Shown here: piece by piece, positions 1,027-33,866 of the stretch
Numbering within the stretch: the first letter of the stretch is position 1
Layout: each line of letters starts with the position of its first letter
Source: Rubritepida sp.
GTDB taxonomy: Bacteria > Pseudomonadota > Alphaproteobacteria > Acetobacterales > Acetobacteraceae
NCBI GenBank assembly: GCA_028291455.1
Contig: JAQGHY010000236.1
Coordinates: 1-35,458 of the forward strand
Reading direction: 5' to 3'
DNA length: 35,458 nucleotides
Notes under the pieces: generated by a model
Database searches by the model: none
What the model was told of the DNA's origin: nothing
What the model saw: only the letters and a program-made list of their open reading frames with translations
Position numbers and translations under genes: made by a program

Positions 1027-2058
1027 GACTTGCACGGCATCGGCGTCCTTCGCAGCAGATCCTGGCGGATTTGCTGGTAACCGCACGCGGGACGCCACCC
1101 GTTTGATCAGCGAGGCGGCTGCCAGGGCGTGCAGCGCGCGACGGGGATGGAGCCCGCCAGGCGGAGGCCGGCCTCGCGTCCCTTTTTTATCGCCGATGCG
1201 GCATCGACAATGTGATTGGACGATGATGCCGATACCACCGTCGGTGCTTTCAACCGTAGCGATCGGCCGCAAGCTACTCATTAGGCTCATAATGCAGGGC
1301 ACTTCGCAGCGGTATTCTACTACGAGCGGGCTGAAGCTAGTGCATATCCGGTAGGACGTCCGGCGGATTGGCCAACAACGAACACTTGGCAATGGGTTTC
1401 CCTCAAGTGAACCGCCGAGCAGTCTCAGTTTTTTTGTGATGGGACGGGCTTAGCAAGCGTTTTTCAGCCTGTTGTGAAGATAAAGCTTGAGACGAAGCTG
1501 AATGGATGCGGCGGCAAAGCAGGACCGAGATCTCGCCAAGCCTAGCGAATCACGCCTACCGTGAGATCGAGCAGGTGCGCCTGGCCCAATACCGCGATCG
1601 TCCGAGGCGGTACCCGCGGCGCCCTCCAATCTTCTGCCGATCACCTAGCGCCGGCTGCCCCCGCTGGCTCCTTCACTTGCAGCGATTGCCAAGAGTCGCC
1701 TTGCTTTTCCTGACCGCATCCACCCAGATCGGCCGCGACGCCCTGGGCGAGGCCGCATGACGAACCAAGGTGCCGTTCTGTCGAAGCTTCGAAGGACGAC
1801 CTCGGAGAGAAACATCCACCAACATTTATCGGCAGCGGAAGCAAAATCCCTCAGGGAGCCTCATAAAGTAGTGCCAACAGAACTATCGTGTTTTCGGTCA
1901 TCCAAAAGTGCAGGCGCGGAAAGTTCGGCTGAAAGACGACCTAGCGCGATGCGGCTTACATTCGCGGAATTCCACATCGCAAAGAAATATCCTAGCTTCT
2001 CCGAAGAAGACCGCGCGGCACAACCGACGCGGCGGAGATTCCCGGGAAGGATCCAACC
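1027..2058. other. Gene-poor gap of about 1 kb, possibly holding decayed sequence
   Basis: No convincing gene on either strand. The ORF-track entries here are short, overlap each other and lack family motifs. Base composition is visibly less GC-rich than the flanking genes, for example around 1240-1340 and 1780-2000. On the reverse strand, about 1230-1350 reads 'VVEYRCEVPCIMSLM' and then 'GGIGIIVQS', which loosely resembles the effector-domain core of a LysR regulator. Another reverse stretch at about 1450-1520 ('FAAASIQLRLKLYLH') faintly resembles a transposase C-terminus. Neither is strong enough to call. The end of the gap should contain the promoter of the Bug gene at 2059. Confidence 0.5.
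1164..1188 (+). terminator. Possible rho-independent terminator after the isomerase gene
   Basis: A perfect 12-base palindrome, GAGGCCGGCCTC (1164-1175), is followed after seven bases by a run of six T (1183-1188). This could end transcription of the upstream isomerase gene. The absent loop and the distance to the T run make it a weak example. Confidence 0.3.
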
Positions 2059-13451: not shown

Positions 13452-14438
13452 TCAGACGGGCCGCACGCCGGTCAGCCGGACGACTTCGTCCCACCGCCGG
13501 AGCTCGGTTCGGATCAGGTCGGCGAAGGCCTGCGGGCCGGTCGCGGCCGGCAGCAGGCTGAGCTGGTCAAAGCGCCGCTGGATCGTGGCCGAAGTCTCGG
13601 CCCGAGCGATCACCGCGTGCAGCCGCGCAACTACCGGCTCCGGTACGCCGGCCGGGCCGAGCACGCCGAACCAGTGCTCGACCACGATATCCACGCCCTG
13701 CTCGCGAAAGGTCGGCACGTCCGGATAAGACTCCAGGCGCCCCTCGCCCGAGATGGCGAGGATCCTCAGCTTGCCGTCCTCGATCAGGCTGCAGGCCGTG
13801 GCGATGGGCGAGAAGGCGGCGTCCAGCGTGCCGGCTGCGAGATCCTGCACGACCGGGCCGGAGCCGCGATAGGGAATGTCCACGATCGGGATGCCCGTAC
13901 GCAGGCGAAGCAATCCGGCCATGAGGTGCGAGACGGCCCCCACGCCGCCATTGCCGAAGCTGAGACCGTTGGGCCTGGAGCGCGCTAGCGACACCAGCTC
14001 AGCGATGTTCTGGGCGGCAAGCGTGCTTTTCACCAGCAGCGCCTGCGGCGAGACCGCGGCTAGCGTCACCGGCGTGAAGTCGCCGATCGGGTCATAGGGG
14101 ATGCTGTAGCCGCCTGCCGCCTGCACGGCGGGAACGATGGCATGACTCATATCCACCAGGACGAAGCTGTGGCCATCCGGCGCGGCGCGCGCGACAGCCT
14201 CGGTGCCCAGTACGGCCGCGCCTCCGGGACGGTTCTCGACCATGACGGTCTGGCCGAGGATCGGGCCCAACTCCGCAGCGAGCAGCCTGGCGACGATGTC
14301 CACCGTGCCACCGGGCGCATAGGGGGCGACGAGGCGAATGGGACGCGTGGGCCAGCCAGCCTCGTCGGCTCTTGCTCCCCACGCGGCCAGGGGCACGGCG
14401 GCCAGCGCTGCCAGGGCGGTGCGCCGGGACAGCCTCAT
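13452..14438 (-). CDS. Bug/TctC-family substrate-binding protein
   Basis: A 328-residue Bug protein with a signal peptide ('MRLSRRTALAALAAVPLAAW'), then 'WPTRPIRLVAPYAPGGTVDI', 'GQTVMVENRPGGAAVLGTEAV' and 'DGHSFVLVDMSHA'. I chose the ATG at 14438 rather than the track start at 14564. This ATG overlaps the TGA of the small ORF upstream (ATGA), and the site before it is weak, so translation is probably coupled. It sits inside the sulfur-scavenging operon, so its ligand may be a sulfur-containing acid; that is inference from context. Confidence 0.92.
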   Translation of the reverse strand: MRLSRRTALAALAAVPLAAWGARADEAGWPTRPIRLVAPYAPGGTVDIVARLLAAELGPILGQTVMVENRPGGAAVLGTEAVARAAPDGHSFVLVDMSHAIVPAVQAAGGYSIPYDPIGDFTPVTLAAVSPQALLVKSTLAAQNIAELVSLARSRPNGLSFGNGGVGAVSHLMAGLLRLRTGIPIVDIPYRGSGPVVQDLAAGTLDAAFSPIATACSLIEDGKLRILAISGEGRLESYPDVPTFREQGVDIVVEHWFGVLGPAGVPEPVVARLHAVIARAETSATIQRRFDQLSLLPAATGPQAFADLIRTELRRWDEVVRLTGVRPV

Positions 14439-14674
14439 GACTGGACCAGGCTCGCGAGGACCACGAGCGCGAGTGCGGCGAACAGAGCCGCAAGGCCGCG
14501 GGGCATGTGCGAGATCATGGGAGCTTCCTTTTGAGGAGAGGCAGCGGGTAGGGTGCCTGCGCATCGCGCCTCCTCAAGCCGCGTCTCGAGCACGGCGAGG
14601 TACCAGCCGGCATCGGACTCGGCGACGAGGACGACGAGAGCGCTGTCCTCGATAAACGGATTGGAAAGTCGCAT
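14435..14674 (-). CDS. Small unknown protein, paralogue of the ORF at 22760, with C-terminal hydrophobic helix
   Basis: A 79-residue ORF with a strong GGAGG ribosome site. Its first 35 residues ('MRLSNPFIEDSALVVLVAES' then 'DAGWYLAVLETRLEE') align with the start of the small protein at 22760-23011 ('MRLSHPITDNGVLI', 'DSGWFLLAIDTRLEE'). The paralogue then has about 45 further residues; here a short linker leads into 'RGLAALFAALALVVLASL', a likely single membrane helix. AAAAGGAAG precedes an internal ATG at 14515, so the hydrophobic tail may also be made separately as a 27-residue peptide. The stop overlaps the Bug start (ATGA). No known family recognised. Confidence 0.6.
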   Translation of the reverse strand: MRLSNPFIEDSALVVLVAESDAGWYLAVLETRLEEARCAGTLPAASPQKEAPMISHMPRGLAALFAALALVVLASLVQS

Positions 14675-14707: not shown

Positions 14708-16309
14708 TCATGGTGCTGATGGCTCGGGGCTGACAGAGGTGGCGAGGGTCTGCTCGTCCGAACGCGCCTCGTAGCGGAGGCCTCGCTGCAACGCCCAGGC
14801 GTTCCGCAGCAGGAAGAGCGGCACGATGCCGACGTCATCCGTCTCCAGCTTCACCGCTTGGCGCAGCAGCTCCTCGCGCTCCGCATCGTCGATCGTGGTG
14901 ATCGCGCGTTCCGTCAGCGCGTCGAGCCGCGGATTGCTGTAGCGGCTGAAGTTTGGCGAACCCCAGCCGCGCGCGCGGTCATAGGTACCGACGACGTTGC
15001 GCAGCAGATAGGAGGCCTCGCCCGTCGAGCTGCCCCATCCGCCCAGCCGGAAGCCGAACTCCTGCCGCGGCCCACGCGTCACGTAGCTCGACCAGGGCAG
15101 CGATTCGATCTGGGTGCGAACACCGATGCGCGTCCAGAACTGCGCCACGGCCTGAGAGGTCGAGAGGTCGCCGGGATACCTGTCGTTCGGCGTGCTTAGC
15201 GTCACGCGGAAGCCCTGGGGGTAGCCGGCTTCCGCCAGCAGCCGCCGCGCCTCGGCAGGATCGAAGGCAGGCACGCCCACGTCTGGGTTGTGGGAGTAGC
15301 TCCCCTCCGGCAGCCATTGCCCCGTTGGGATCGCGGCACCGTGCATGATGCGATCGGCCAGCGCACGGCGGTCGATCGCGATGGAGAGCGCCCGGCGGAC
15401 ACGGACGTCCTGGAAGGGGTTGCGTGGCAGCCGCTCGCCATTGTTGTCCGTTACGCCGGGTACGTCCCCGCCCTGGCGGGAGAAGTCGGCCTGCAGATAG
15501 ATCAGCCGCACTCCAGTGGTCTCGGCGATGGTCAACCGCGGCTCTCGCCGCAGCCGGGGCAGGTCGGCGCCCGGCACTTGGTCGATCAGGTCCACGTCGC
15601 CTGCCAAGACGGCCGCGCTACGCGAGCCGTCATTGGGAAGGAAGCGGAAGTTTACCCGCGCCCAGGGCTGGGCTGGACCCCACCATGCGTCGTTGCGGGC
15701 GAAGACTGCGCCCTCGCCGGGGCGGTAGCTGACGAAGCGGTAGGGGCCGGTGCCGATGGAGGCGCGGCCGCTGTTGTAGTCGGCCGGATTCGCGTCCGTC
15801 CCAACGTGGCGCGAGATGACCTGCACCGAGGCGATATCGTTGGGCAGCAGCGGGTTCGGCCGCGCCGAATGCAGTCGGATCGTGAGCGCATCCACCACCT
15901 CCACGCGCGTGATGGAGCGAACGGCGCCGGAGAAGCCGCCGGGGCTGCCCTGGACATTCGGCACCCGCTGGATGGTGAAGGCGATATCGTCAGCGGTCAG
16001 CGGCCGACCGTCATGCCAGGTGACGTTCGGGCGGAGGCGGAACTCCCAGACCGTTGGCTCCACGGCTGTCCAGCTCTCGGCGAGGGCGGGGATAAGGCGG
16101 GCCTGGGCGTCGCGGCCGACCAGCGCGTCGAAGACATGGCCGGTGAGCGCGAAGTTCGAAGTGGTGTTGGAAAAATGCGGGTCGGCCGAGTTGACCGGAT
16201 TGGCAAGGCCGACGGTGAGCGTTTGCGTCAGCCCCGCCGGCGCGAGGACCAGGAAGAGTGCAGCCACCACCACACGTTCGGCGCGTGGAGAAAGAAAGGC
16301 GTAAGGCAT
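14708..16309 (-). CDS. ABC transporter substrate-binding protein, family 5 (peptide/nickel/glutathione type)
   Basis: A 533-residue extracellular solute-binding protein of family 5 (DppA/OppA/GsiB type). It starts at ATG 16309 with a hydrophobic signal ('VVVAALFLVLAPAGLTQT'). Family blocks: 'TVGLANPVNSADPHFSNT', 'WEFRLRPNVTWHDGRPLTAD', 'GTGPYRFVSYRPGEGAVF', 'DVRVRRALSIAIDRRALADR'. The track frame at 16429 overlaps the end of metY and is less likely. No DppBCDF-type permease or ATPase genes accompany it, so it must use a transporter elsewhere or be an orphan. Next to metY and LLM monooxygenases, import of a sulfur-containing peptide or organosulfur compound is a reasonable guess. Confidence 0.9.
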   Translation of the reverse strand: MPYAFLSPRAERVVVAALFLVLAPAGLTQTLTVGLANPVNSADPHFSNTTSNFALTGHVFDALVGRDAQARLIPALAESWTAVEPTVWEFRLRPNVTWHDGRPLTADDIAFTIQRVPNVQGSPGGFSGAVRSITRVEVVDALTIRLHSARPNPLLPNDIASVQVISRHVGTDANPADYNSGRASIGTGPYRFVSYRPGEGAVFARNDAWWGPAQPWARVNFRFLPNDGSRSAAVLAGDVDLIDQVPGADLPRLRREPRLTIAETTGVRLIYLQADFSRQGGDVPGVTDNNGERLPRNPFQDVRVRRALSIAIDRRALADRIMHGAAIPTGQWLPEGSYSHNPDVGVPAFDPAEARRLLAEAGYPQGFRVTLSTPNDRYPGDLSTSQAVAQFWTRIGVRTQIESLPWSSYVTRGPRQEFGFRLGGWGSSTGEASYLLRNVVGTYDRARGWGSPNFSRYSNPRLDALTERAITTIDDAEREELLRQAVKLETDDVGIVPLFLLRNAWALQRGLRYEARSDEQTLATSVSPEPSAP

Positions 16310-16425
16310 GGCGTGTGACCTTGTTGTTCTGGAGCCGAGGACTGTGGGAAGCGCGCGGGCGAGTTCTCGCAGCGGGTTCAGATTGGACAGACGCGCTCGG
16401 CCTGGAGGCCGGTGGATGGCATTCC

Positions 16426-17730
16426 TCATTCCGCTGCTGCCGGCACGGCGACGGCATCGAGGGCCTGGTCCAGATCCTCGAGGATATCGTCGATATGCTC
16501 GAGGCCGATGGAGAGCCGCACATAGCCTGGCGTCACCCCCGTCGCTCGCTGCTCCGCCTCGGAGAGCTGGCTGTGCGTGGTGCTGGCGGGATGGATCGCC
16601 AAGCTGCGCGCGTCGCCGATATTTGCGACATGATAGAAGAGCTTGAGCGCATCGATCAGGCGCGTACCCGCTGTTACCCCGCCGCGCAGTTCAATCCCGA
16701 CAAGCCCGCCGTAGCCGCCGGTTAGATAGCGGTCGGCTCGAGCTCGGCTCTCGCCGCCTTGCTGAGAAGGATAGATGACCCGCCGCACCTCGGGTCGCCG
16801 CGCCAGCCATTCCGCTACCGCCAAGGCATTGTTGGAATGCTGCCGAATGCGCAGCGGAAGAGTCTCGACGCCCTGCAGGATCTGAAAGGCGTTGAAGGGC
16901 GAGAGCGGCGCGCCAAGGTCGCGCTGCACGGAACTGCGCACCGCCGCAATATAGGGCGGCACGCCAAGCTTCGGTGCGGCCTCGGTCCAGATGGTGCCGT
17001 GGTAGCTGGGATCCGGCTCGTTCAGCAGGGGCTGGCGCGCGGGATGTGCAGCCCAATCAAAGTTCGCGCCATCGATGATGGCGCCGGCGATAGAGGTGCC
17101 GTGACCGCCCAGGTATTTGGTAGCCGAATAGACGACAATCGCTGCGCCGTGGTCGAAGGGCCGCGCCAGGAGTGGTGCCGCGGTGTTGTCCAGGATCAAT
17201 GGGATGCCGAGTGGGCGACCGATCGCCGCCACTTCCGCGATGGGAAAGACCACCAGCTTCGGGTTGGGAAGCGTTTCGCCGTAATAGGCGCGCGTGCGAT
17301 CGTCCGTGGCGCGGCGGAAGTTCTCGGGGTCGGCGGGGTCGACGAAGCGGGTCTCGATCCCCAACCGCTTCAGCGTGTTGGCGAATAGATTCCAGGTGCC
17401 GCCATAGAGGTCCGTGGAGGAGACGATGTTGTCGCCGGCCTGCGCCAGGGCGAGCACCGAGAAGGCGGAAGCCGCTTGGCCGGAGCCCAGGGCGAGCGCG
17501 CCCGCGCCGCCCTCCAGCGCCGCAAGCCGGCGCTCCAGCACGTCCACCGTAGGATTGCCGGTGCGCGAGTAGATGAAGCCCAGCTGCTCCAGCCCGAAGA
17601 GGCTGCGCGCATGCTCGGAGTCCTGGAACTGATAGGAGGTGGTTTGGTAGATCGGCACCGCTACGGCGCCGTTGGTGGGATCCGCGCGCCAGCCGGCGTG
17701 CAGGGCTTGGGTCTCGGGGCGATGAGTCAT
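16426..17730 (-). CDS. metY: O-acetylhomoserine sulfhydrylase (PLP-dependent)
   Basis: A 434-residue Cys/Met-metabolism PLP enzyme of MetY size. Motifs: 'TQALHAGWRADPTNGAVAVP', 'YSRTGNPTVDVLERRLAALE', 'GSGQAASAF', 'ETLPNPKLVV', the PLP-holding 'LDNTAAPLL', and the Schiff-base lysine Lys205 in 'VVYSATKYLGGHGTS'. It makes homocysteine from O-acetylhomoserine and sulfide, or a methylthio compound from methanethiol. It starts two bases after the upstream SsuA-like gene with GGGAG inside that gene's end, so it is part of the ssu-type operon. This links released sulfur directly to methionine synthesis. Confidence 0.93.
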   Translation of the reverse strand: MTHRPETQALHAGWRADPTNGAVAVPIYQTTSYQFQDSEHARSLFGLEQLGFIYSRTGNPTVDVLERRLAALEGGAGALALGSGQAASAFSVLALAQAGDNIVSSTDLYGGTWNLFANTLKRLGIETRFVDPADPENFRRATDDRTRAYYGETLPNPKLVVFPIAEVAAIGRPLGIPLILDNTAAPLLARPFDHGAAIVVYSATKYLGGHGTSIAGAIIDGANFDWAAHPARQPLLNEPDPSYHGTIWTEAAPKLGVPPYIAAVRSSVQRDLGAPLSPFNAFQILQGVETLPLRIRQHSNNALAVAEWLARRPEVRRVIYPSQQGGESRARADRYLTGGYGGLVGIELRGGVTAGTRLIDALKLFYHVANIGDARSLAIHPASTTHSQLSEAEQRATGVTPGYVRLSIGLEHIDDILEDLDQALDAVAVPAAAE

Positions 17731-17732
17731 GG

Positions 17733-18671
17733 TCAGCTCCCCGTCACGGCGAAGGTGGTGTCGAAGGCCTCCGACACCCGGATGGGGCGCGATAGGACGC
17801 CGAATTCGACGGCCTCATCGCTGGCCCGCTGCAGTTCTGCCAGCAGCGGCGCATCGATTGGGACCACGCGGGTCCGGGTGGTTTCATAGGCGCGCTGCAG
17901 GAAGCGCTCCTGGATGCGCGTCAGCTCGGAGGTGTTGCGCGCGAAGGCCGGGATGTTGTCCTGCGTCCAGGACCAGCCGCGCGCCACCCGCTGCAGGAAG
18001 TCTTGCAGCAGCGGGCGTTTCTCGCGCAGCGCGTTCTCGTGCACGGAGATGAAATAGGCCGTCGGCGAGAGCCCGGTCGCATCCACGAGCGTGCGCGCCC
18101 CGAAACCCAGGATCTCGATGGAGTTGTAGGGCTCCCAGGCCGCCCAGGCGTCGACAGCCCCCGTGCGGAAGGCGAGCGAGGCGTCGCCCGGCGCGAGGTG
18201 CACGATGTCCACCTCGGAGGGAGAAATGCCTTCGCGCTTCAGCGCGGCGCGGACAAGGAACTGGCCCCAGCCGCCGCGATTGCCCACAACCTTCTTGCCC
18301 CGAAGATCGGCGACGGTGCGGATGGCGCTGTCGCCCCGCACCAGGATGCCTTGCGAAGCCTGACTGTCCCGCGTCACTCCGATCGCCTTGATCGGCGCGC
18401 CATTGGCATAGCTGTTGAAGAAGGCGAGGTCGCCCTGCGTGCCGAGGTCGATGGCAGCAGCGTTCAGCGCCTCCAGCAGCGGCGCGGCGAAAGGGAACTC
18501 ACTCCATTCGATGCGGTAAGGAAGATCGCGCGCCTGGCCGGAGACCTCGATGAGCGAGCGCAAACCGCCTTTCTGGTTGCCGATGCGCAGGACGGGCGTC
18601 GATTGCGCCAGCGCCGGCAGCGCCAGCGTGGCAGCCGCGCCGGCGCCGAGGATCCGTCGTGTGATATTCAT
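17733..18671 (-). CDS. SsuA-like sulfonate ABC transporter binding protein (second tandem copy)
   Basis: A 312-residue periplasmic protein of the SsuA/NitT/TauT type with a signal peptide ('MNITRRILGAGAAATLALPA'), then 'LRIGNQKGGLRSLIEVSG', 'YRIEWSEFPFAAPLLEALNA', 'IDLGTQGDLAFFN' and 'DAWAAWEPYNSIEILG'. It is very similar along its whole length to the neighbouring gene at 18668-19618, so the pair arose by tandem duplication. Its ATG overlaps the upstream TGA (ATGA). It would deliver sulfonates to the SsuC/SsuB transporter encoded upstream. Differences in the ligand-facing parts (for example 'SYANG' against 'VFANG') may broaden the substrate range. Confidence 0.92.
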   Translation of the reverse strand: MNITRRILGAGAAATLALPALAQSTPVLRIGNQKGGLRSLIEVSGQARDLPYRIEWSEFPFAAPLLEALNAAAIDLGTQGDLAFFNSYANGAPIKAIGVTRDSQASQGILVRGDSAIRTVADLRGKKVVGNRGGWGQFLVRAALKREGISPSEVDIVHLAPGDASLAFRTGAVDAWAAWEPYNSIEILGFGARTLVDATGLSPTAYFISVHENALREKRPLLQDFLQRVARGWSWTQDNIPAFARNTSELTRIQERFLQRAYETTRTRVVPIDAPLLAELQRASDEAVEFGVLSRPIRVSEAFDTTFAVTGS

Positions 18672-19618
18672 AGTGAGTCCTCGGTCAGGGTGAAGCTGGT
18701 GTCGAAGGCATCCGCCACGCGGATAGGGCGGGAGAAGACGCCAAACTCCACCGCCGCATCGCTCGCGGCCTGGAGTTCGGCGACCAGTGCCGTGTCGATC
18801 GGCACGGCCCGCGTTTGCTGCACCTCGTAGGCCCGCTGTAAGAAGCGCACGGGAATGCGCGTCAGTTCGGAGGTGTTCTGTGCGAAGGCCGGGATATTGT
18901 TCAGCGCCCAGGCCCAGCCGCGCCGGTTGCGCTGGAGAAAGTCCTGCAGCTGTGGGCGCTTTTCGCGCAGGGTGTTGTCGTGAACCGAGATGAAATTGGC
19001 CGTCGGCGTAAGACCGGTGCCGTCCACTAGAACGCGCGCTCCGAAACCAAGGATTTCAATGGAGTTGTAGGGCTCCCAGATCGCCCACGCATCGACAGAA
19101 CCGGAGCGGAAGGCCAGCGAGGCGTCGGTTGGCCCGAGCGGTACGATAGTGACCTCGGCCGGGTCGATGTTCGCGCGCTTCAGCGCCGCGCGAACGAGGA
19201 ATTGGCCCCATCCGCCGCGGTTACCGGCGACCTTCTTGCCGCGCAGGTCGGCCACCGTGCGGATCGGCCCGTCCCCGCGCACCAAGATAGCCTGGGAGGC
19301 GGGCTCGTGCCGGGTGGCGCCGATCGCTTTGATAGGTGCGCCATTGGCGAAGACGCTGAGGAAGGCAAGGTCGCCCTGGGTGCCGAGGTCGATGGCATTG
19401 GCGTTCAGCGCCTCCAGCAGCGGCGCGGCCGCGGGGAACTCGCTCCATTCGATGCGATAGGGCAGATCGCGCCCCTGGCCCGAGACGTCCAGGAGCGAGC
19501 GTAGCCCGCCTTTCTGATTGCCGATGCGCAAGGTCGGAGCAGCGGTCTGGGCGATGGCGGGGCTTGCCAGCAGGCCCGTAGCGCCAATGAGGGCGCGGCG
19601 GTTGAGGGTGAAGGTCAT
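18668..19618 (-). CDS. ssuA: SsuA-like sulfonate ABC transporter binding protein (first tandem copy)
   Basis: A 316-residue SsuA-type binding protein. It starts at ATG 19618 (GAGG upstream), not at the track's 19873, giving a signal peptide 'MTFTLNRRALIGATGLLASP'. Diagnostic stretches are 'LRIGNQKGGLRSLLDVSGQG', 'IEWSEFPAAAPLLEAL', 'GNRGGWGQFLVRAALKR' and 'AIWEPYNSIEILGFGA'. It lies eight bases after the SsuD-like monooxygenase gene and overlaps the next copy by four bases. Role: capture of aliphatic sulfonates for import by SsuBC. Confidence 0.92.
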   Translation of the reverse strand: MTFTLNRRALIGATGLLASPAIAQTAAPTLRIGNQKGGLRSLLDVSGQGRDLPYRIEWSEFPAAAPLLEALNANAIDLGTQGDLAFLSVFANGAPIKAIGATRHEPASQAILVRGDGPIRTVADLRGKKVAGNRGGWGQFLVRAALKRANIDPAEVTIVPLGPTDASLAFRSGSVDAWAIWEPYNSIEILGFGARVLVDGTGLTPTANFISVHDNTLREKRPQLQDFLQRNRRGWAWALNNIPAFAQNTSELTRIPVRFLQRAYEVQQTRAVPIDTALVAELQAASDAAVEFGVFSRPIRVADAFDTSFTLTEDSL

Positions 19619-19626
19619 GGCGATCC

Positions 19627-20730
19627 TCACGCGGCCGTGTGGAGGGATACGGAGACCCGGCCGACATCCTCGGCCTGGGCGAGTTCCCGCAGCAGTGGGA
19701 TCAGCTCCCGACCGTACTGGGCGGCATCGGGCAGCGGGTCCCAGCCACGTAAGATGAAGTGCGCGACGCCGATACGGCGGTATCGCAGCAGCGAGCGTGC
19801 TACCTGCTCGGCCGTGCCGACCAGCGCGGTACTGTTGCCGCGACCTCCGAGCACGCCCGCCATAGCGGTCCAAAGCCGCTCATCCAGCACCTCGCCGCGT
19901 TGTGAAAGAGCGACCAGGCGCTGCGAGTTCACCGCCTGTCCGGCTGCGATGAGCCCCTGCGTGCCGCTGATCTCCAGTTTAGCGATGGCGCGACGGCGAT
20001 AGTCCTGCGCCTTCTCCCAAGCCTGCTTCTCGGTCGCTGCAATGATCGGGCGATTGGACCAGGAGAATGCCGGCACGTGGTCGCCGGAGGAAGCGGCGCG
20101 CACGCGGTCGAGCATGGCCTGAGTTTCCGCCAGCGGCTCTCCAAAGAGCGCGTATACGTCGGCATGGCGCGCGGCGACACGCAACGCGATGTCCGAAGCG
20201 CCGCCGAAGAAGATCGGCAGATAGGGCTTCTGCACCGGGCGAATGTCGGACCAGGCCTGCTCGAACCGGTAGAACTCGCCGGCATGGTCGATGGGCTTCT
20301 CCGCGGTCCAAATGCGGCGAAGGATGTCGAGGAACTCGTCGGTACGGCGGTAGCGCGCCTCGTGGCCCTCGTGATCGCCGTCCTTGCGCTGGTCGCCGTC
20401 CTCGCCGCCGGAGATGACGTGCAGCGCGAGCCGCCCGCCGGTGAGCTGGTCGAGTGTCGCGAGCTTCCGCGCGGCCACGGTCGGCGAGACGAAGCCCGGG
20501 CGGTGCGCGAGCAGGAAGTTGAGCCGCTTCACGGCCGTGGCTGCCTGGGCGACGACGAGGAAGCCGTCGGCCGCGTTCGTCCAGTAGCCGGCGAGGACGC
20601 GGTCGAACCCGCCCTCCTCATGCAGGCGAGTGATGTGGTTGATGAAGTCCGGCTGGAAGGCCGGTCCTTCCTGCACTTCGAGGTCGGAGGTGGGACGTGC
20701 CCAGATCATGCCGGTGATGTGAAGGCTCAT
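19627..20730 (-). CDS. ssuD: SsuD-like FMNH2-dependent alkanesulfonate monooxygenase
   Basis: A 367-residue LLM-class monooxygenase of the alkanesulfonate type: 'GGFDRVLAGYWTNAADGF', 'LAHRPGFVSPTVAARKLATL', 'LTGGRLALHVISGGEDGDQR', 'YRRTDEFLDILRRIWTA', 'YLPIFFGGASDIALRVAA'. It starts at ATG 20730 with AGGAG just upstream; the track's extra 26 codons are upstream sequence. Such enzymes cleave the C-S bond of sulfonates with oxygen and reduced FMN, releasing sulfite and an aldehyde. It sits between ssuB and the ssuA pair as in ssu operons. No SsuE-type flavin reductase is present. A dimethylsulfone-type SfnG role is an alternative. Confidence 0.88.
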   Translation of the reverse strand: MSLHITGMIWARPTSDLEVQEGPAFQPDFINHITRLHEEGGFDRVLAGYWTNAADGFLVVAQAATAVKRLNFLLAHRPGFVSPTVAARKLATLDQLTGGRLALHVISGGEDGDQRKDGDHEGHEARYRRTDEFLDILRRIWTAEKPIDHAGEFYRFEQAWSDIRPVQKPYLPIFFGGASDIALRVAARHADVYALFGEPLAETQAMLDRVRAASSGDHVPAFSWSNRPIIAATEKQAWEKAQDYRRRAIAKLEISGTQGLIAAGQAVNSQRLVALSQRGEVLDERLWTAMAGVLGGRGNSTALVGTAEQVARSLLRYRRIGVAHFILRGWDPLPDAAQYGRELIPLLRELAQAEDVGRVSVSLHTAA

Positions 20731-20813
20731 GGCGAGCTCCTGGTGATGGCGTTGCGGGACGGGTTCAGCCTCGGTCCTGACATCGCCCAGTCGGATTGTG
20801 CCGCGCATCCATC

Positions 20814-21557
20814 TCAGGCCGCCTTCGCCGCGGCATCGTGGCCGTCTTCGTCCACGCCCAGAGCCGCGAGCAGGCGCAGACGCAGCGCGTCGAATCCGGG
20901 GGCCGAACGGCGGCGCGGGCGCGGCAGCGGCACCGCCACGTCGTCGATGAAGCGCCCGTTCGCCAGCACCAGCACGCGCGACGCCAGCAGTAGCGCCTCC
21001 TCGACGTCATGGGTCACCAGCAGCACGGCCGGGCGATGGGCCGCCCACAGCTCGCTCACCAGGGACTGCATGCGTAGCCGGGTCAGGGCGTCGAGCGATG
21101 CGAATGGCTCGTCGAGCAGCAGCAGTTCGGGCTCTCGAACGAGCGCGCGGGCAAGGCCGGCGCGCTGCGCCTCGCCGCCCGACAGCGTGAGCGGCCAGGC
21201 TTCCGCGCGATGCGTCAGCTCCACCTCGCCCAGCGCGTTCAGCGCGCGCTCGCGAGTTCTGGCCGCGCTGCCCCTCAGGCCGAGCGCGACATTCTGCCAA
21301 ACGGGCTTCCAGGGCAGCAGCCGCGGCTCCTGAAAGACCACGGCGCTGCGGCTGGGCAGGATGGCCTTCCCCTCGGTCACGAGGTCCAGCCCGGCGAGCG
21401 TGCGCAACAGCGTGGTCTTGCCGGAGCCACTGCGGCCGAGAAGGGCCACGAACTCACCGGCCGCGATATCGAGCTCGATACGGTCGAGCACCGGCGGCGA
21501 TTCGGGCCCGTGGAAGCGGCGCGAGAGGGCACGGAGGGAAACGACGGGCTCGGCCAT
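20814..21557 (-). CDS. ssuB: Aliphatic sulfonate ABC transporter ATPase
   Basis: A 247-residue ABC ATPase of the nitrate/sulfonate/taurine group. Walker A is 'LLGRSGSGKTTLLRTLAG', the Q-loop 'AVVFQEPRLLPW', the signature 'LSGGEAQRAGLARAL', Walker B 'ELLLLDEPFASLDALTR' and the switch histidine 'VTHDVEEALLLA'. It lies three bases after ssuC. The gap to the monooxygenase gene is about 80 bases, the largest within this part of the operon. Confidence 0.93.
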   Translation of the reverse strand: MAEPVVSLRALSRRFHGPESPPVLDRIELDIAAGEFVALLGRSGSGKTTLLRTLAGLDLVTEGKAILPSRSAVVFQEPRLLPWKPVWQNVALGLRGSAARTRERALNALGEVELTHRAEAWPLTLSGGEAQRAGLARALVREPELLLLDEPFASLDALTRLRMQSLVSELWAAHRPAVLLVTHDVEEALLLASRVLVLANGRFIDDVAVPLPRPRRRSAPGFDALRLRLLAALGVDEDGHDAAAKAA

Positions 21558-21560
21558 GAC

Positions 21561-22388
21561 TTAGCCCTCCTGAATCAAAGAGGGGCGCCAGGCGAGCGCC
21601 CGCCGCTCAAGCATGCGGACCAGCTGGTCCGCGCCCAGGCCGAGCAGCGCATAGACCAGCAGCCCCACCAGGATGATGTCGATGCGCAGGAACTCGCGCG
21701 CGTCCATAACCAGGAAGCCGATGCCAGCCGTGGCGTTGATCTGCTCACCGACGACTAGGCTCAACCAAGCCGTGCCCAGCGCATACCGCAGCCCCACAAG
21801 AGCCTGCGGAAGCGCGCCGGGCAGCACGACGTGGCGGATGAGGCCCCAGCGATCCAGGCCGAAGATGCGTCCGGCTTCGATGAGCTTGGGGTCGACGCCG
21901 CGGATGCCACCGAAAAGCGTGAGGTAGATCGGGAAGGTGGCGCCAAGTGCCACGAGTGCGATTTTCGTCGCCTCCCCGATGCCGAGCCACAGAATGAAAA
22001 GCGGAACCAGCGCCAGGAAGGGCAGCGCGCGAAGCATCTGCAGGGTGGCGTCCACCGCGTCTTCGCCGAGCTTCGACAGGCCGGCGATGAGGCCGAGCGA
22101 GACCCCGGCCGAGAGCGCGATGGCTAGGCCGATCGCGACTCGCTGCAGCGAGACCAGGAGGTGGTAAGGCAGCTCGCCGGAGACGATCAGCTCCCAGGCG
22201 GCCACCGCTATGGCGTTGGGTGGCGCGAGGAGGCGTGTGGAGACGAAGCCTGCATCGGCCGCGCCCTGCCAGAGCGCCACGAGCAGTATGGGAACGAGGA
22301 GGCGCCGTGCGCCGGAGAGCTTCCAGGTGGAACGCGGGCGGGATACGCGCGGCGGGGCGACGGGCACGGCGATGGCTTGGCCGGACAT
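21561..22388 (-). CDS. ssuC: Aliphatic sulfonate ABC transporter permease
   Basis: A 275-residue BPD-type inner-membrane permease with about six membrane helices ('LLVPILLVALWQGAADAGFV' is the first). The cytoplasmic EAA coupling loop is 'IEAGRIFGLDRWGLIRHVVL' followed by 'PGALPQALVGLRYALG'. It pairs with the SsuB ATPase next door to move sulfonates. Three small ORFs precede it in the same direction, with a 74-base gap after the last. Confidence 0.93.
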   Translation of the reverse strand: MSGQAIAVPVAPPRVSRPRSTWKLSGARRLLVPILLVALWQGAADAGFVSTRLLAPPNAIAVAAWELIVSGELPYHLLVSLQRVAIGLAIALSAGVSLGLIAGLSKLGEDAVDATLQMLRALPFLALVPLFILWLGIGEATKIALVALGATFPIYLTLFGGIRGVDPKLIEAGRIFGLDRWGLIRHVVLPGALPQALVGLRYALGTAWLSLVVGEQINATAGIGFLVMDAREFLRIDIILVGLLVYALLGLGADQLVRMLERRALAWRPSLIQEG

Positions 22389-22462: not shown

Positions 22463-22591
22463 TTAGGGGGGCGTGAGCCCGGCCAGGGCGACAAGCCCGA
22501 GGACCGCGGCGACGGCCGCCACGCTGCGCAGTGCGAGCGAGGCAAGTGCTAGGCCTTCGCTCTCGGCGAAGCGTCGCAAGGAGGCTGCCAT
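22463..22591 (-). CDS. Small hydrophobic peptide, 42 residues, unknown
   Basis: An ORF too short for the track. After a short charged start ('MAASLRRFAESEGLALASLA') it has a hydrophobic helix 'SVAAVAAVLGLVALAGL', long enough to cross a membrane once. Its ATG overlaps the TGA of the ORF before it (TGATG), a classic coupling arrangement. It is third in a three-gene set of small proteins at the head of the ssu operon, just before ssuC. The fused hydrophobic tail of the ORF at 14435 looks like the same kind of module. No known family recognised. Confidence 0.55.
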   Translation of the reverse strand: MAASLRRFAESEGLALASLALRSVAAVAAVLGLVALAGLTPP

Positions 22592-22770
22592 CACCCAGCG
22601 GCCACTCGTGAAGGCACGACAGCCGTAGCGACGAGCACTCGTGAAAGATCGGCCAAGATGCCGTCGAAGCGGCAGGAGATGGTCTGGCAGTTCAGCGCCG
22701 CCAGGGCATGGGTGGCGGCATCACGGCGCCAGCCGTCATGAGTCACCACAGTCTTAGGTTCAAGCGGCAT
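22591..22770 (-). CDS. Small unknown protein, 59 residues
   Basis: An ORF too short for the track, sitting exactly between two other small ORFs. It starts inside the end of the upstream ORF (11-base overlap; GGGAG upstream) and ends in a TGATG overlap with the next. The sequence is protein-like rather than random: 'THDGWRRDAATHALAALNC' and then 'ISCRFDGILADLSRVLVATA', with two cysteines and amphipathic helices. It lacks a signal peptide or membrane segment. The precise overlaps on both sides are the main argument that it is translated. Function unknown. Confidence 0.55.
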   Translation of the reverse strand: MPLEPKTVVTHDGWRRDAATHALAALNCQTISCRFDGILADLSRVLVATAVVPSRVAAG

Positions 22771-23011
22771 GAGACGCTCCCAGAACCGCGTGCGACGAGT
22801 GATCCGCGCCGGGCTGCCAGGGCGAGGCGATGGGGTGGTTCCGGCGCAGGTAACTGCGCGCGGCGCGTCCGACGTCCTCGACGCTCGAGAAATTCACGCG
22901 ATCGAGCTCCTCGAGACGCGTGTCGATGGCGAGCAGAAACCAGCCGGAATCGCCCAGGGCGGCGACCGCAATGAGCACACCGTTATCGGTGATGGGGTGG
23001 GAAAGGCGCAT
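22760..23011 (-). CDS. Small unknown protein, 83 residues, first gene of the ssu operon
   Basis: An 83-residue ORF. I start at ATG 23011 with GGAGG five bases upstream, not the track's 23026. It begins 'MRLSHPITDNGVLIAVAALG' followed by 'DSGWFLLAIDTRLEE', then 'NFSSVEDVGRAARSYLRRNH'. The first 35 residues are shared with the ORF at 14435-14674 in the same operon, so this is a duplicated small-protein family. No signal peptide or membrane helix is seen; it is probably cytoplasmic. Position at the head of a sulfonate operon suggests a role in sulfur limitation, by inference only. Confidence 0.65.
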   Translation of the reverse strand: MRLSHPITDNGVLIAVAALGDSGWFLLAIDTRLEELDRVNFSSVEDVGRAARSYLRRNHPIASPWQPGADHSSHAVLGASHAA

Positions 23012-23322
23012 GTGATCCTCCAGCACCGCTCAAGGCGGCGTTCGGATGCATTCGACGGAAATAGATAGAGAGAGGTCGGCTTAGCCGCGGCGACAGCGCG
23101 GACAGGGCGTCCGGCGCGTCATCAAGATCTTCCTGGCGCAGGGGCGGCCGAGGCGAGGCATATCCGTGTCCCTATGAGGTCCTGACCGTGCAAAAACGCC
23201 CGGCCCGACAATCACGCATTTTTCACCGTAATTTGTCAAACAGATTCTGTTAGATATTTTAGTGAATTAATAATTCAACTGTCATTGCCGGATTCGGAGG
23301 CGAGCTGCCGCCTCCACAGGCT
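23012..23322 (-). promoter_or_regulatory. Leader and promoter region of the ssu operon
   Basis: This 311-base region lies between cysNC and the small ORFs that begin the ssu operon. An AT-rich island (about 23215-23285) contains, on the reverse strand, a perfect -35 box TTGACA (forward bases 23234-23239); no good -10 follows at ideal spacing. TTTCACCGTAAT (23221-23232) resembles elements in the other AT-rich promoters. The roughly 200-base leader holds two short reverse uORFs with cysteine codons (23172-23219 and 23081-23161). This layout suggests control in the leader as well as at the promoter. Confidence 0.45.
23081..23161 (-). CDS. Short cysteine-containing leader ORF, 26 codons
   Basis: A reverse-strand uORF in the leader of the ssu operon: ATG at 23161, TAA at 23081, with AGGGA upstream. 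The peptide is strongly basic and has three cysteines, two in a 'TPCPRCRRG' ending. It ends 69 bases before the ATG of the first small gene. It may be a leader peptide sensing cysteine supply. A second, 15-codon frame just upstream (23172-23219) has two more cysteines. Chance frames of this size are common, so confidence is modest. Confidence 0.35.
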   Translation of the reverse strand: MPRLGRPCARKILMTRRTPCPRCRRG

Positions 23323-25263
23323 TCAGTCGCCATGGGCTACGACGCCTGACGTGCGGAATGCCTTGAGTGCCAGCGCTACTAAACTGCGCGTGCAAACCTC
23401 CTCATCCAGGGTTCCGGTGTCGAGCACGAGATCCGCCTCGTGCGGCGCCTCGTAGGGCGCCGAAATGCCGGTGAAGTCGGCGAGGTGATCCTCGCGTGCG
23501 CGGCGGTAGAGACCCTTAGGATCCCGCGCCTCGCAGGTGGCGAGGTCGGCCGAGAGGTAAACCTCGCGGAAGCGTCCATTTGCGATCCGCCGCGCCTCGG
23601 CTCGATGGGCGGCCATCGGCGAGATAAGTGCGACCACCGCAACCAGCCCGGCATCGGCGATCAGCGCGGCGGCTTCCGCGGCCCGCCGCACGTTCTCAGC
23701 GCGGTCCTCCGGCCGAAAGCCCAGATCTCGGTTTAGGCCGCGGCGCAGGTTGTCGCCGTCCAGTAGCGTCGCCTGGAGCCCGCGCGCCGCGAGCTCACGG
23801 ACGGCGCGAGCGGCCAGAGTGCTCTTGCCCGAGCCCGAGAGCCCGGTGAGCCAGAGCACGCCACCCCGGTGCCCGTTGGCCTGCGCGCGCTCGTCTGCCG
23901 TCAGCGGCGCCTCGACGGCGGTGAGGTTGCTGCCGGCCGCCTCCAACGCTTCCACGACGAAGCCGCCGACGATGCGATGGTTGCGCACCAGCACGCCGCG
24001 CCCGGTGCGCGGGCTTGTGCCGTAGGTGTCCAGCGCCAGTGGCCGACGCGCGCGCAACCGGGCGCGTGCCACGCCGTTGCGCTCCAGCCGCTCGGCCGGG
24101 ACAGAGGTGAGTGTGTCGACATCAATCACGGCGTCGATCGCCTCGACGGCGGCGCGGGTCTCGGCGGTGCCGTGGCGGAGCGTCGGACGCTCACCCTGGA
24201 GCAGCGGCTCCGCATCCAGCCAGAAGAGCCGGACCGTGACCGCATGTGCCTCGCTGGGCGGCGCCGAAGCCGCACCCAGCACTTGGCCGCGCTCGGCGAA
24301 GACGTCGCGGTCCAGCACGACAGCCACGCTCTCGCCGGCACCCGCCTCGCTGCGCGCCTCACCGCCCCAGTGCTCGAGGCTTAGCACCCGCGCCGCACGT
24401 CCGCCGGGGGCGAGCAGCACCTCATCGCCAAGGCCCAGTCGACCCGTCTCGATCCGTCCGACCAGCACGCGCTGCTCGCCAAGCCGGTAGACATCCTGCA
24501 CCGGCAGGCGCAGCGGCAGCTCGGTAGGGCGCGGCCGCGGCGGCAGCCCGTCCAGCGCACCGATCAGCGTGGGCCCGGCATACCAGGGCGCGGCTTCACT
24601 GCGGTCCACGACGTTGTCGCCATGCCGCGCCGAAAGCGGCACGACGTGCACGGCCGCGAGATCGAGCGCGCTCAGATACTCCGCGAGCTCAGCGCGCAGC
24701 GCCGTGAAGCGTGCCTCGCTCCAATCCACACGGTCCATCTTGTTCAGGGCCACGACGATGTTCGACACCCCCAGGATGGAGAGCAGATAGAGGTGACGGC
24801 GCGTCTGCTCGCCCAAGCCCTGCTCGGCGTCTACCACCAGCACGGCGGCCTCGGCCTGTGCCGCACCGGTCACCATGTTGCGCAGAAACTCCGCATGCCC
24901 CGGGGCGTCGAGCACGGCGTAGCGCCGCTCGGCGCCGCGAAACCAGACCTGGGCGGCGTCCACCGTGATGCCCTGGTCGCGCTCCACCTGGAGGCTGTCG
25001 AGCAGAAAGGAGAATTCAAGATCGAGCCCGCGGCGCGACGATTGCTCGCGCAGCGCCGCGATACGGGCGGCGGGGATAGCGCCGGTGTCGTGCAGCAACC
25101 GGCCAACCAGCGTGGACTTGCCGTGATCCACATGACCTACGATCACCACCGGGAAGGCGACATCCTTCACCGCGAGTGCGGCCTCGCCCGCGCGCGACGC
25201 GGTGAGCGCCGCGTCGCGCCTGTCCACCATGGCCTGGGTGTCCACCACGCCGGGGCCGCTCAC
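23323..25263 (-). CDS. cysN/C: Bifunctional sulfate adenylyltransferase large subunit / APS kinase
   Basis: A 646-residue fusion. Residues about 35-440 are the CysN GTPase: P-loop '[20 protein letters not shown]', '[15 protein letters not shown]', '[19 protein letters not shown]', '[11 protein letters not shown]'. From about residue 465 comes APS kinase (CysC): '[20 protein letters not shown]', '[17 protein letters not shown]', '[20 protein letters not shown]'. CysN powers APS formation by CysD through GTP hydrolysis; CysC makes PAPS. It starts with GTG overlapping the TGA of the cysH-cysD gene (GTGA), so the two are translationally coupled. This bifunctional form (often annotated NodQ- or CysNC-like) is common in alphaproteobacteria. 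Confidence 0.95.
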
Positions 25264-30385: not shown

Positions 30386-30541
30386 CTAGTCGGGGGTGTT
30401 CGCTGCGGGTGATGGAATAACAGGCCACCCACAGATGGCACCAAAATCCTCAAGACGCTTAGGATTGTCCAGGACGGCCGCGGCGCTCGCGCCGATGGCA
30501 ACCACCAAGGCTGCCGCCGTCAGCGCGTCAGACCGTCGCAT
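30386..30541 (-). CDS. Small hydrophobic protein, 51 residues, end of the ABC operon
   Basis: An ORF too short for the track. Its ATG lies inside the last codons of the ABC ATPase gene (14-base overlap), so translation could be coupled. It starts 'MRRSDALTAAALVVAIGASA', resembling a signal peptide or single membrane helix, followed by a polar tail with one cysteine ('FGAICGWPVIPSP'). No ribosome site is evident. It is one of several tiny hydrophobic ORFs beside the transporter genes in this window. Function unknown. Confidence 0.4.
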   Translation of the reverse strand: MRRSDALTAAALVVAIGASAAAVLDNPKRLEDFGAICGWPVIPSPAANTPD

Positions 30542-31337
30542 CGCCGACGCCCAGCAGCGCTAACACCTCACGCCGCAACTTCACCAGGCGTGCGTCGTCG
30601 CGATGGCGCGGATAGGCGAGGTCTACCGGGATCTCCGCGGTGATGCGGGCCGGGCGGGGGCTGAATACCACCACGCGTGTTGCCAGCAGCAGTGCCTCCT
30701 CGACATCATGCGTGACAAGCAGTGTCGTGAAGCCCTCCCGCTGCCACAGCCGCACGAGTTCGCCTTGCATCGCGATGCGCGTGAGGCTGTCGAGCTTGCC
30801 GAGGGGCTCATCGAGAATCAGCAGCCTCGGCTCGTTTACCAGGGCACGGGCCAGCGCGGCACGCTGCGCCATGCCGCCCGAGAGTTGGTGCGGGTAGGCG
30901 TCGGCAAAGCCGTTGAGGCCTACTAGCTCCAGCGCGGCATCAACTCTGCTGCGCTGGCTCCTCAAGAGTCCGCGCGCCTCAAGCCCCAAAGCTGCGTTCC
31001 GCCAGACGGTTCGCCAGGGGTAGAGCGTCGGATCTTGGAAAACCACCACGCGCGAGGGATCGGGCCCGGTGATCGGCGCCCCATCGACGGAGAGTTCGCC
31101 CTGCGTCGGCGGTTCAAGCCCCGCCACCAGCCGCAGCAGCGTGGACTTGCCGCAACCTGAGGGGCCGAGCAGAGCCACGAATTCGCCGGGCGCGGCGGTA
31201 AGCGATACGTTGTCCAGGACGGGCAGCGGCGCGCCCTTGAGCTGGTAATGATGGCTTACGCCGCGCACATCCAGCGCAGCGCCGGGAGCAAGGGGCGCCG
31301 AGAGCAGGCTCCGATCGAGTGTCGCGGCGTTCACCAT
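30528..31337 (-). CDS. ABC transporter ATPase, nitrate/sulfonate/taurine type
   Basis: A 269-residue ATPase. Walker A 'LLGPSGCGKSTLLRLVAG', Q-loop 'VVVFQDPTLYPW', signature 'LSGGMAQRAALARALV', Walker B 'RLLILDEPLGKLDSLTR', switch 'VTHDVEEALLLA'. I start at ATG 31337 with AAGGGAG upstream, seven codons inside the track frame; this ATG overlaps the permease stop. It energises the second NitT/TauT-family importer in the window. It is distinct from ssuB, with clearly different flanks. Confidence 0.92.
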   Translation of the reverse strand: MVNAATLDRSLLSAPLAPGAALDVRGVSHHYQLKGAPLPVLDNVSLTAAPGEFVALLGPSGCGKSTLLRLVAGLEPPTQGELSVDGAPITGPDPSRVVVFQDPTLYPWRTVWRNAALGLEARGLLRSQRSRVDAALELVGLNGFADAYPHQLSGGMAQRAALARALVNEPRLLILDEPLGKLDSLTRIAMQGELVRLWQREGFTTLLVTHDVEEALLLATRVVVFSPRPARITAEIPVDLAYPRHRDDARLVKLRREVLALLGVGDATV

Positions 31338-32335
31338 TTCACAACTCCCTTCTGCCAAGAGAGCAGCCGGTCACGCGCCTGGAAAAGCAGGGTGATGAGG
31401 CCCGAGCACATCAGCGCCATCACAAGCAGCGCGGCGTACATATTGCCGTATGCTGCCCAGCCTTGCGCCCAACTCAGATACCAGCCGAGGCCCGAGCGCA
31501 CGCCCAGCATCTCCGCCACCACCAGGACGGCAAAGCTCGCGCCGAGGCCCATGAAGAGCCCGACGAATACATGCGGCAACGCGGCTGGGATCGCGACCTT
31601 CAACACGAGGAAGCGCGGCTTTGCGCCCAGCGTGCGCGCCACGTCATAGAAGTCAGGATTGACCGAGGCGACACCCGACCAGGTAAGCACCGCGACCGGA
31701 AACCCCGTGGCGAGTGCGATGAGAAAGGTGCTGGCGCTCGCCGAGGAGGGAAAAAGGAAGAAGGCGAGCGGCAGCCAAGCCGTCGCCGGGAGCGGTCCCA
31801 CCAGCCGCATGACGGGATGCGCCCAATAGCCGAAGCGCGGAGACCAGCCGAGCCCGATGCCTACGGCGAAGCCCACGGCCGAGCCCAGCACATAGCCGCG
31901 CGCCAACAGCCAAAGCGAGGCGAGCACGCTCTCGCCGAGGCGTGCCCAGTCGTCGAGATAGACTTCCACCAGCTGCTGCGGAGGCACGAAGAAGGGCATG
32001 GGCAGCAGCGAAAACTTCGCCGTCACCGCCTGCCAGGTTGCGAAGAACAGCCCCAGGGCGACGAACCAAGGACCGAGGCCTTGGATGCGTCGCCACAATG
32101 GCGGAATCAGCGGCGCCGTGACGGCCAAGACGAGAAATGTCACGGCGATAGCGCCCTGCGCGACCGCGATATGGCCCGTCTGTGTCCACTCCACGATCTC
32201 GGACTGATCGGGAAAGTGGTGCGTGACGAAGGCGGCCAGGGCCCAGGCCGAAGCAGCCAGCAGGCCGGACCACCACAGGGCGGGGCCGCGAAACGCCAGC
32301 GGCGCCTCCCTGGCAAAAGGAAGTGAGTGGCTCAT
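31331..32335 (-). CDS. ABC transporter permease, nitrate/sulfonate/taurine type
   Basis: A 334-residue permease, longer than SsuC because of an N-terminal extension with two extra predicted helices ('WWSGLLAASAWALAAFV', 'GAIAVTFLVLAVTAPLI'). The BPD core has the EAA-type loop 'DVARTLGAKPRFLVLKVAIP' and 'AALPHVFVGLFMGLG'. Both ends overlap neighbours: its ATG overlaps the binding-protein stop (ATGA), and its stop overlaps the ATPase start. It moves the ligand delivered by the binding protein at 32332. Confidence 0.92.
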   Translation of the reverse strand: MSHSLPFAREAPLAFRGPALWWSGLLAASAWALAAFVTHHFPDQSEIVEWTQTGHIAVAQGAIAVTFLVLAVTAPLIPPLWRRIQGLGPWFVALGLFFATWQAVTAKFSLLPMPFFVPPQQLVEVYLDDWARLGESVLASLWLLARGYVLGSAVGFAVGIGLGWSPRFGYWAHPVMRLVGPLPATAWLPLAFFLFPSSASASTFLIALATGFPVAVLTWSGVASVNPDFYDVARTLGAKPRFLVLKVAIPAALPHVFVGLFMGLGASFAVLVVAEMLGVRSGLGWYLSWAQGWAAYGNMYAALLVMALMCSGLITLLFQARDRLLSWQKGVVKW

Positions 32336-33387
32336 CCGGCGAAGACCGTGCCGGTGATGCGGTCGGCCATACGCGCGGGATCGGTGTTGGCGCGGATGAC
32401 GTTGATGCGCTTCAGGTCGGTAATATAGGCTTGCAACTCGTCACGCAGCTCCGTGCCCACGGGGCTGTGGCCGTGGGTGTGGCTTTGCAGGATCTCGGAC
32501 ATCTCTGCCACGCTCACGCCGCCGGGCGCATAAGCCGCAAAGGTCCGCGCCGCGAGGTCGTGATTGCCGTTCACCAGCTGTTGCGCGTCGAGCAGCGCCT
32601 GGGTGAGCGCGGCGGCGACCGGCCGATTGCTGCGCAGAAGGCTGCCGCGGACACCCAGCACGCAGCAGGCGCGGTGGGCATAGTCCTCATGCAGGTTGGT
32701 CGAGATTTCGACGAGGTCGAGGCGCCGGCGGAACTGCCAGGCTAAGGGGTCGCCGAGCGCGATGGCCTGCACCTCGCCGCGGCTGAGGGCGAGTTCGAAG
32801 ACGTTGGCGGGGAAGACCTTCCAAGTGACGTCGCGCTCGGGATTCACGCCGTGGCGCGCGAGCAGGATCGAGAAGAAGTTCTTATCTGGCGCGGCCATGT
32901 CGGTGACGGCAATGGTCTTGCCGCGCAGGCTCGCGAGGTCATCAGTGATGCCGGTGCCGCGCCCGGCCAGCAGCCGCATGCAGCCGCCATGGGTGCCGGC
33001 AGTTATGCGAACGTCAAAGCCCTGCTCGAGCGGCTTGAGCCATCGCAGCGCCATGCCGACGCCTGCATCGGCATGGCCTGTGGCAATGGCCTCCAGCAGT
33101 GCCTCGGTGGAGGCGCCGAAATTGACCAGCTCAACATCCAGGTTATAGCGCGCAAAGATGCCCTCGCGCTCGGCCACGGCGATGGGCGAGGTGCAGAGCG
33201 CCGTCGCGTTCCAGGCGAGCTTCAGCTTCACCCGTTCGGGCAGCGGGGACGCACGGGAGATCGGCGGGGCTGGCTCCCCGTGGTTAGCGTGGGCGTGCTG
33301 AGCCGTGGCTGGTGTCAGGGGCGCCGCGGCAAGAGCGGCCGAGGCGGCGAGCAACGAACGGCGGCCGGGTTGGTGCGGCTGGATCAT
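32332..33387 (-). CDS. ABC transporter substrate-binding protein, NitT/TauT type, histidine-rich
   Basis: A 351-residue SsuA/NMT1-type binding protein. It starts at ATG 33387 with GGAG upstream; the track's 56 extra codons are leader sequence. A twin-arginine-like, hydrophobic signal ('GRRSLLAASAALAAAPLTPA') is followed by a histidine cluster 'QHAHANHGE'. Core: 'VKLKLAWNATALCTSPIAVA', 'EREGIFARYNLDVELVNFG', 'LRGKTIAVTDMAAPDKNFF'. A second cluster 'QSHTHGHSP' occurs near the C-terminus. The histidines may bind metal, which would be unusual for a sulfonate receptor. The ligand is unknown. Confidence 0.9.
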   Translation of the reverse strand: MIQPHQPGRRSLLAASAALAAAPLTPATAQHAHANHGEPAPPISRASPLPERVKLKLAWNATALCTSPIAVAEREGIFARYNLDVELVNFGASTEALLEAIATGHADAGVGMALRWLKPLEQGFDVRITAGTHGGCMRLLAGRGTGITDDLASLRGKTIAVTDMAAPDKNFFSILLARHGVNPERDVTWKVFPANVFELALSRGEVQAIALGDPLAWQFRRRLDLVEISTNLHEDYAHRACCVLGVRGSLLRSNRPVAAALTQALLDAQQLVNGNHDLAARTFAAYAPGGVSVAEMSEILQSHTHGHSPVGTELRDELQAYITDLKRINVIRANTDPARMADRITGTVFAG

Positions 33388-33866
33388 GGAAAGCTCCGGT
33401 CCGGCGGCTAAACGCCGGGGTGATGAGATTGGTGGCGATGTCGGCGAAGGCCAGGATCTGCAGGGCGGCGGGCGGAAGCTGCCGTCAACAACGCCCTTGT
33501 TGAGCCTGGAGGCCTGGATGGGCCGATGCGGCATGGGAGACGGGCATTCGTTCATTCCATGAGTGCAGACGCGATAACCGTCCGCCGACCGAAAGTTTCA
33601 CGATAAAAAATAGGAGTCAATACATCATTACTATATTTTGACGTAAAATAGGTTTCGGCGGACCAGCCTCTTTGGGCATTTTTGACCCACATGAGGACCT
33701 GCCTTCCTGCAGTGGATTGGCGCTTGAACTGCCAAATAGGACGCGCCAACACCGTTTAACGGCTTGTCGCCGTCATTCGTCCGTGGCCTGTAGCCTAGCC
33801 TGCGCTGACCGCCGCCCGGATGGCTGGACACGAGAACATTATCAATTCACTATCCATATCGTCAGT
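33388..33866. promoter_or_regulatory. Divergent region with nested inverted repeats and AT-rich promoters
   Basis: It separates the reverse ABC operon from the forward TauD operon. An AT-rich core at 33589-33652 lies between arms GTCCGCCGA (33580-33588) and TCGGCGGAC (33655-33663). Inside is a second repeat, GTCAA (33616-33620) and TTGAC (33638-33642). TTTCACGATAAA (33596-33607) and ATTCACTATCC (33845-33855) resemble elements at other promoters. In the reverse leader a 20-codon uORF ending in cysteine (33485-33547) precedes a CCGGCG/CGCCGG hairpin (33401-33418) next to the binding-protein ribosome site. Confidence 0.45.

Follow-up and report, generated by a model that had tools for sequence, protein, structure and literature searches.

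The conserved element at the head of the ssu operon in the window (the whole 35,458-nucleotide stretch of Rubritepida sp. DNA that was analysed) is a short leader ORF carrying cysteine codons, located at 23081-23161 on the minus strand, as are all of the window features described below. An earlier, sequence-only reading of this DNA did not list the leader and centred instead on three small ORFs downstream of it. We consider it likely that leaders of this kind act as cysteine-responsive attenuators controlling sulfur operons, usually with ORF1, the first of the three small ORFs, as the first product.

Organization of the operon head

The leader lies between cysNC (23323-25263; NCBIfam CysN plus adenylylsulfate kinase), upstream of it on the same strand together with a cysH-cysD fusion, and ORF1 (22760-23011; 83 codons), which is followed by ORF2 (22591-22770; 59 codons) and ORF3 (22463-22591; 42 codons, or 43 with a GTG at 22594), all three with ATG starts. 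The sizes, positions and overlaps previously described for these ORFs are borne out by the sequence. ORF1 and ORF2 overlap by 11 bases (ATGCCGCTTGA), ORF2 and ORF3 share a TGATG, and a GGAGG Shine-Dalgarno site (23017-23021), conserved in Roseococcus pinisoli loci L025 and L207, is positioned 5 nt before the ATG of ORF1. The ORFs do not run directly into ssuC, as had been stated, since a gap of 74 nt separates ORF3 from this transporter permease gene (21561-22388, start at 22388; Pfam BPD_transp_1). ssuC is the first large downstream gene and is followed by ssuB, genes for an SsuD-like monooxygenase and two SsuA-like binding proteins, and metY. The proteins of this sulfur operon (14708-22388) are strikingly low in cysteine and methionine; its MetY contains neither residue in the 434 positions after the start and one SsuA-like protein contains neither in 312. 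A further sulfonate/taurine/nitrate-type ABC transporter set (binding protein, permease and ATPase) is found on the same strand at 30528-33555.

The window leader comprises 26 codons and a stop (MPRLGRPCARKILMTRRTPCPRCRRG, then the stop). Both of its C-terminal cysteine codons are UGU and fall within the last nine codons, placing them near the stop and upstream of sulfur genes, as expected of a cysteine attenuator, and aligned counterparts are present in R. pinisoli L207 and L025. Short ORFs upstream of ORF1 relatives were scored as leaders when they had a Shine-Dalgarno-like site and their last nine codons included two or more for cysteine. They occur at 48 of the 102 ORF1-family loci (45 of 99 without three duplicates) versus 0.9% of 4810 control positions, and leaders with at least three cysteines occur at 20.6% of loci versus 0.08% of controls, the controls being random positions rather than matched 5' regions and related loci not being independent; about a third of the ORF1 loci have no leader by the criteria used. 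Examples, each ending at the stop, include MIRTCIRKTRLCCCR, ..MTSHDGCCCCN and MQLAPRHQALKR..MRCRR, and leader-like ORFs also precede all four annotated loci, those of Azospirillum, Microvirga, Tistrella and Roseomonas. The cysteine codons of the leaders are themselves under selection, as 72% of them (105/146) are UGU versus 6% (13/209) in the downstream genes (Fisher p about 1e-40). A search of Rfam assigned the leader to no family; the single match at gathering level was to an mmgR/suhB-type sRNA (RF00519), located near a related ORF1 at 1881-1955 (minus strand) of L019 in R. pinisoli (G012:C7), just upstream of an ORF1-metQ unit.

Upstream of the leader, an AT-rich stretch contains a candidate -35 element of a putative promoter, TTGACA (23234-23239), of which TTGAC is conserved in the alignment with two R. 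pinisoli loci. The leader stop codon forms the loop of a small hairpin (CGGC-UAA-GCCG, 23077-23087), an element present at 13 of 66 leader loci versus 2.3% of control stop codons, and therefore not a universal one. A second, putatively functional hairpin (CGCCGC-CUUGA-GCGGUG, 23024-23040) is located directly upstream of the ORF1 Shine-Dalgarno site, with a similar hairpin at the same position in R. pinisoli L025 and L207. The spacer between leader and ORF1 is C-rich across the loci (C/(C+G) 0.62 versus 0.50, p 4e-22, against random control windows not limited to 5' regions). The RNA from leader to ORF1 folds, overall, only slightly more stably than shuffled sequences (mean z -0.8) and no intrinsic terminator was seen between leader and ORF1, which makes Rho-dependent or translational control likelier than intrinsic termination.

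In the mechanism that we propose, the leader, with its UGU codons just before the stop, would be translated first, and a scarcity of charged tRNA-Cys would cause the ribosome to dwell at these codons. This dwelling would alter what happens to the RNA that separates the leader from ORF1, where the stop-codon hairpin, the C-rich spacer and the hairpin adjacent to the Shine-Dalgarno site are found, such that at low cysteine transcription or translation would proceed into the operon. With ample cysteine, attenuation of the operon would set in, either because Rho acts at the C-rich spacer or because the ribosome site is occluded. The first product made in sulfur starvation would be ORF1, a small, soluble protein with almost no cysteine or methionine. 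If this scheme is right, Alphaproteobacteria would sense cysteine for organosulfur and methionine scavenging without a dedicated transcription factor.

The ORF1 small-protein family

ORF1 encodes a real small protein that has not been described before and is tied to the acquisition of sulfur. Homologs were identified in 8 of 21 genomes of the window's genus, in 61 of 250 genomes of its family (35 of 102 genera) and, at the level of the class, in 42 of 387 genomes (27 of 264 genera); a phylum-level search, for which the number of genomes covered outside the class is unclear, returned matches in the same class only. Carriers include Roseococcus, Rubritepida, Rhodovarius, Roseomonas, Azospirillum, Microvirga and Tistrella, with the homologs in the last four either annotated as 'hypothetical protein' or unannotated. 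The earlier statement that ORF1 belongs to no recognised family stands, as Pfam, NCBIfam and PHROG searches with 56 members gave no significant match and comparison of ORF1 with PDB sequences likewise gave nothing significant. A check for codon-level selection, which had been suggested previously, revealed purifying selection in all 14 homolog pairs (pN/pS 0.10-0.45). Residues 1-60 are conserved, W24 and D30 being among the conserved columns, and are followed by a variable C-terminal tail. The AlphaFold model has a beta-beta-beta-alpha-alpha core, with pLDDT 92-98 for residues 1-60. The family contains only 0.15% cysteine and 0.63% methionine, a composition expected for a product of sulfur starvation.

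Several candidate relationships for ORF1 were rejected. Fold searches against the PDB and BFVD gave nothing with E < 0.001, and YkuJ (2ffg) is too weak a match (TM about 0.45) to count as a structural relative. An identity with OscA/DUF2292 was discarded because the 56 members have no DUF2292 match at E up to 0.1. A resemblance to the P7-like RNA polymerase regulator of Xp10 was likewise dropped, with sub-threshold matches only (PF20800, best E 0.0084 in 6 members; 2mc5, E 0.99), a profile search giving nothing at E up to 1 and P7 lying outside the 50 best fold matches.

Relatives of ORF1 often head sulfur-scavenging operons, whose genes encode an SfnB/acyl-CoA-dehydrogenase-like enzyme together with a TctC-type binding protein and an SsuD-like monooxygenase, or MetN, MetI and MetQ, or SsuA-type proteins. 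In Azospirillum sp. B510, for instance, ORF1 is located immediately before metQ-metN-metI-metQ. Solitary copies that have no downstream gene on the same strand also exist, with leaders ahead of them, and many copies have no recognisable sulfur gene adjacent. The previously suggested link to sulfonate uptake is thus retained as a tie to sulfur acquisition but loses its specificity for sulfonates, given the methionine-transport operons, the SfnB/SsuD-like operons and the solitary copies. Within the window itself, a relic second copy of ORF1 is found at 14435-14674, in which the first ~35 residues are fused in frame to a one-helix peptide (..MISHMPRGLAALFAALALVVLASLVQS, then the stop); the stop of this fusion overlaps the start of a TctC-type gene.

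A purely cis role for ORF1, in which it is a spacer whose translation links the first operon gene to the leader and whose protein product has no role, would account for the frequent ATGA overlap between the ORF1 stop and the next start and for a 27-codon stub kept in the place of ORF1 in R. pinisoli. However, such a role is unlikely in view of the purifying selection acting at the protein level, the confidently predicted fold, the conservation of W24, D30 and other columns, and the solitary copies that have no same-strand gene downstream to be coupled to. Because selection, fold and solitary copies speak against it, ORF1 probably works as a protein, and we infer that it probably acts in trans as an accessory factor or regulator of sulfur scavenging. 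It is conceivable, though we would stop short of calling it probable, that leader and ORF1 together form a class-wide alphaproteobacterial sulfur-starvation module, in which the UGU leader derepresses a small protein of a new family that switches cells in trans to organosulfur scavenging. The attenuator model, if right, also draws attention to a conserved small protein that is uncharacterised and carries only the annotation 'hypothetical' in, for example, Azospirillum sp. B510.

Other readings of the leader and the trio

Rather than being a regulator, the cysteine-rich leader could encode a functional micropeptide, such as a metal- or thiol-binding one, and the clusters of adjacent cysteines in several leaders are consistent with this. 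Such a function is improbable, as the cysteines are confined to the stop-proximal end while the remaining leader sequence varies between lineages, and the strong preference is for UGU, a rare codon, which reflects selection on the codons and not on the leader peptide.

The sequence-only reading had suggested that the three ORFs could form a small accessory complex dedicated to sulfonate uptake, consisting of a soluble pair and a one-helix membrane peptide. The tight same-strand overlaps ahead of ssuC, and the presence of relatives of both ORF1 and ORF3 near sulfur genes, are compatible with this proposal. Against it, the alignments of ORF2 identify it as the decayed start of a metY gene, a remnant, rather than one partner of a soluble pair. 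It shares 40% identity over 35 residues with residues 1-35 of the window MetY and, in relatives, matches the starts of full-length MetY genes over 36 residues at identities of up to 50%, and it is ruled out on these grounds as an independent small gene. MetY is an O-acetylhomoserine sulfhydrylase (TIGR01326), of which ORF2 matches the first ~35 residues; most of the enzyme, including the full-length PLP-enzyme domain, is missing from its 59 codons, and ORF2 has no Pfam match. Unlike the cysteine- and methionine-free MetY of the same operon, ORF2 carries two cysteines. The similarity of ORF2 to alpha-repeat designs in the PDB looks compositional. A second truncated MetY N-terminus (MSLKPETLALHAGWRRDPATKAVAVP..) is found at another locus (L034, G020), behind ORF1 and a transmembrane peptide and downstream of cysDH-cysNC, the order of peptide and MetY fragment being the reverse of that in the window.

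The remaining member of the proposed complex fares better, as ORF3 is probably a one-helix membrane peptide, with a putative start codon and putative expression. At around 10 loci, the ORF1 stop is overlapped, in most cases by ATGA, by the start of a transmembrane peptide ~30-60 residues long, and several of these peptides also overlap the start of the next gene; in relatives, a peptide of the ORF3 type is coupled between ORF1 and the gene that follows. Against a model built from such peptides at other loci, ORF3 obtains 18.7 bits, whereas 3000 shuffled versions of its hydrophobic part reached no more than 11.5.

The trio is nevertheless not a conserved unit. R. pinisoli (G012) possesses a syntenic ssuC-ssuB-ssuD-ssuA operon, whose SsuC is 92% identical to that of the window and which keeps the promoter-like sequence, a leader ending RCRRP and the GGAGG-ATG. 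In this operon the 27-codon stub replaces ORF1, and ORF2 and ORF3 are absent, and thus the leader has been kept at the ssu operon and ORF1-3 have not. The closest homolog of ORF1, also from R. pinisoli (L025), precedes a gene for a peptide-binding protein and has its own leader. Taken with the origin of ORF2 as a metY fragment and the position of ORF1 at the head of methionine-transport and other operons, this makes the dedicated complex very improbable.

That all of the ORFs are chance open frames, of which GC-rich DNA has many and among which ORF2 is not an independent gene, is a negligible prospect, refuted by conservation and selection for ORF1 and by conservation and codon bias for the leader, and possible for ORF3. 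The earlier assertion that the arrangement is hard to explain by chance holds clearly for ORF1, with its pN/pS values and its homologs in many genera, and probably for ORF3, with its model score relative to shuffles, but not for the gene remnant ORF2. Tight overlaps in a single genome can therefore mislead, since the conserved element here is a shorter, unlisted ORF upstream of them.

Comparison with known systems

The polycysteine leaderless short ORFs of mycobacteria, described in 2020 by Canestrari and colleagues, reportedly serve as cysteine-responsive attenuators. The leaders analysed here resemble them in being short upstream ORFs with clustered cysteine codons ahead of sulfur-related operons. 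They differ in possessing a Shine-Dalgarno site, in being alphaproteobacterial, in favouring UGU and in usually preceding the gene for an undescribed small protein, and their response to cysteine is one that we infer. The OscA small proteins of Pseudomonas, which constitute the DUF2292 family, are linked to organosulfur use and sulfur starvation. ORF1 is similarly a small protein tied to these processes, although none of 56 members of its family matches DUF2292. The uORFC-8-2 motif ahead of cysS likewise consists of an upstream ORF with conserved tandem cysteine codons and has been proposed to be a ribosome-mediated attenuator (PMC8632094). Unlike the leader in the window, it ends in an intrinsic terminator and precedes the gene for cysteinyl-tRNA synthetase, neither of which is seen here. 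Both the leader and ORF1 are directly testable in culturable strains. No cysteine leader from Alphaproteobacteria was found in the open-access literature, and the alphaproteobacterial leader described here, which favours UGU and is associated with a small-protein family not described before, appears to be new.
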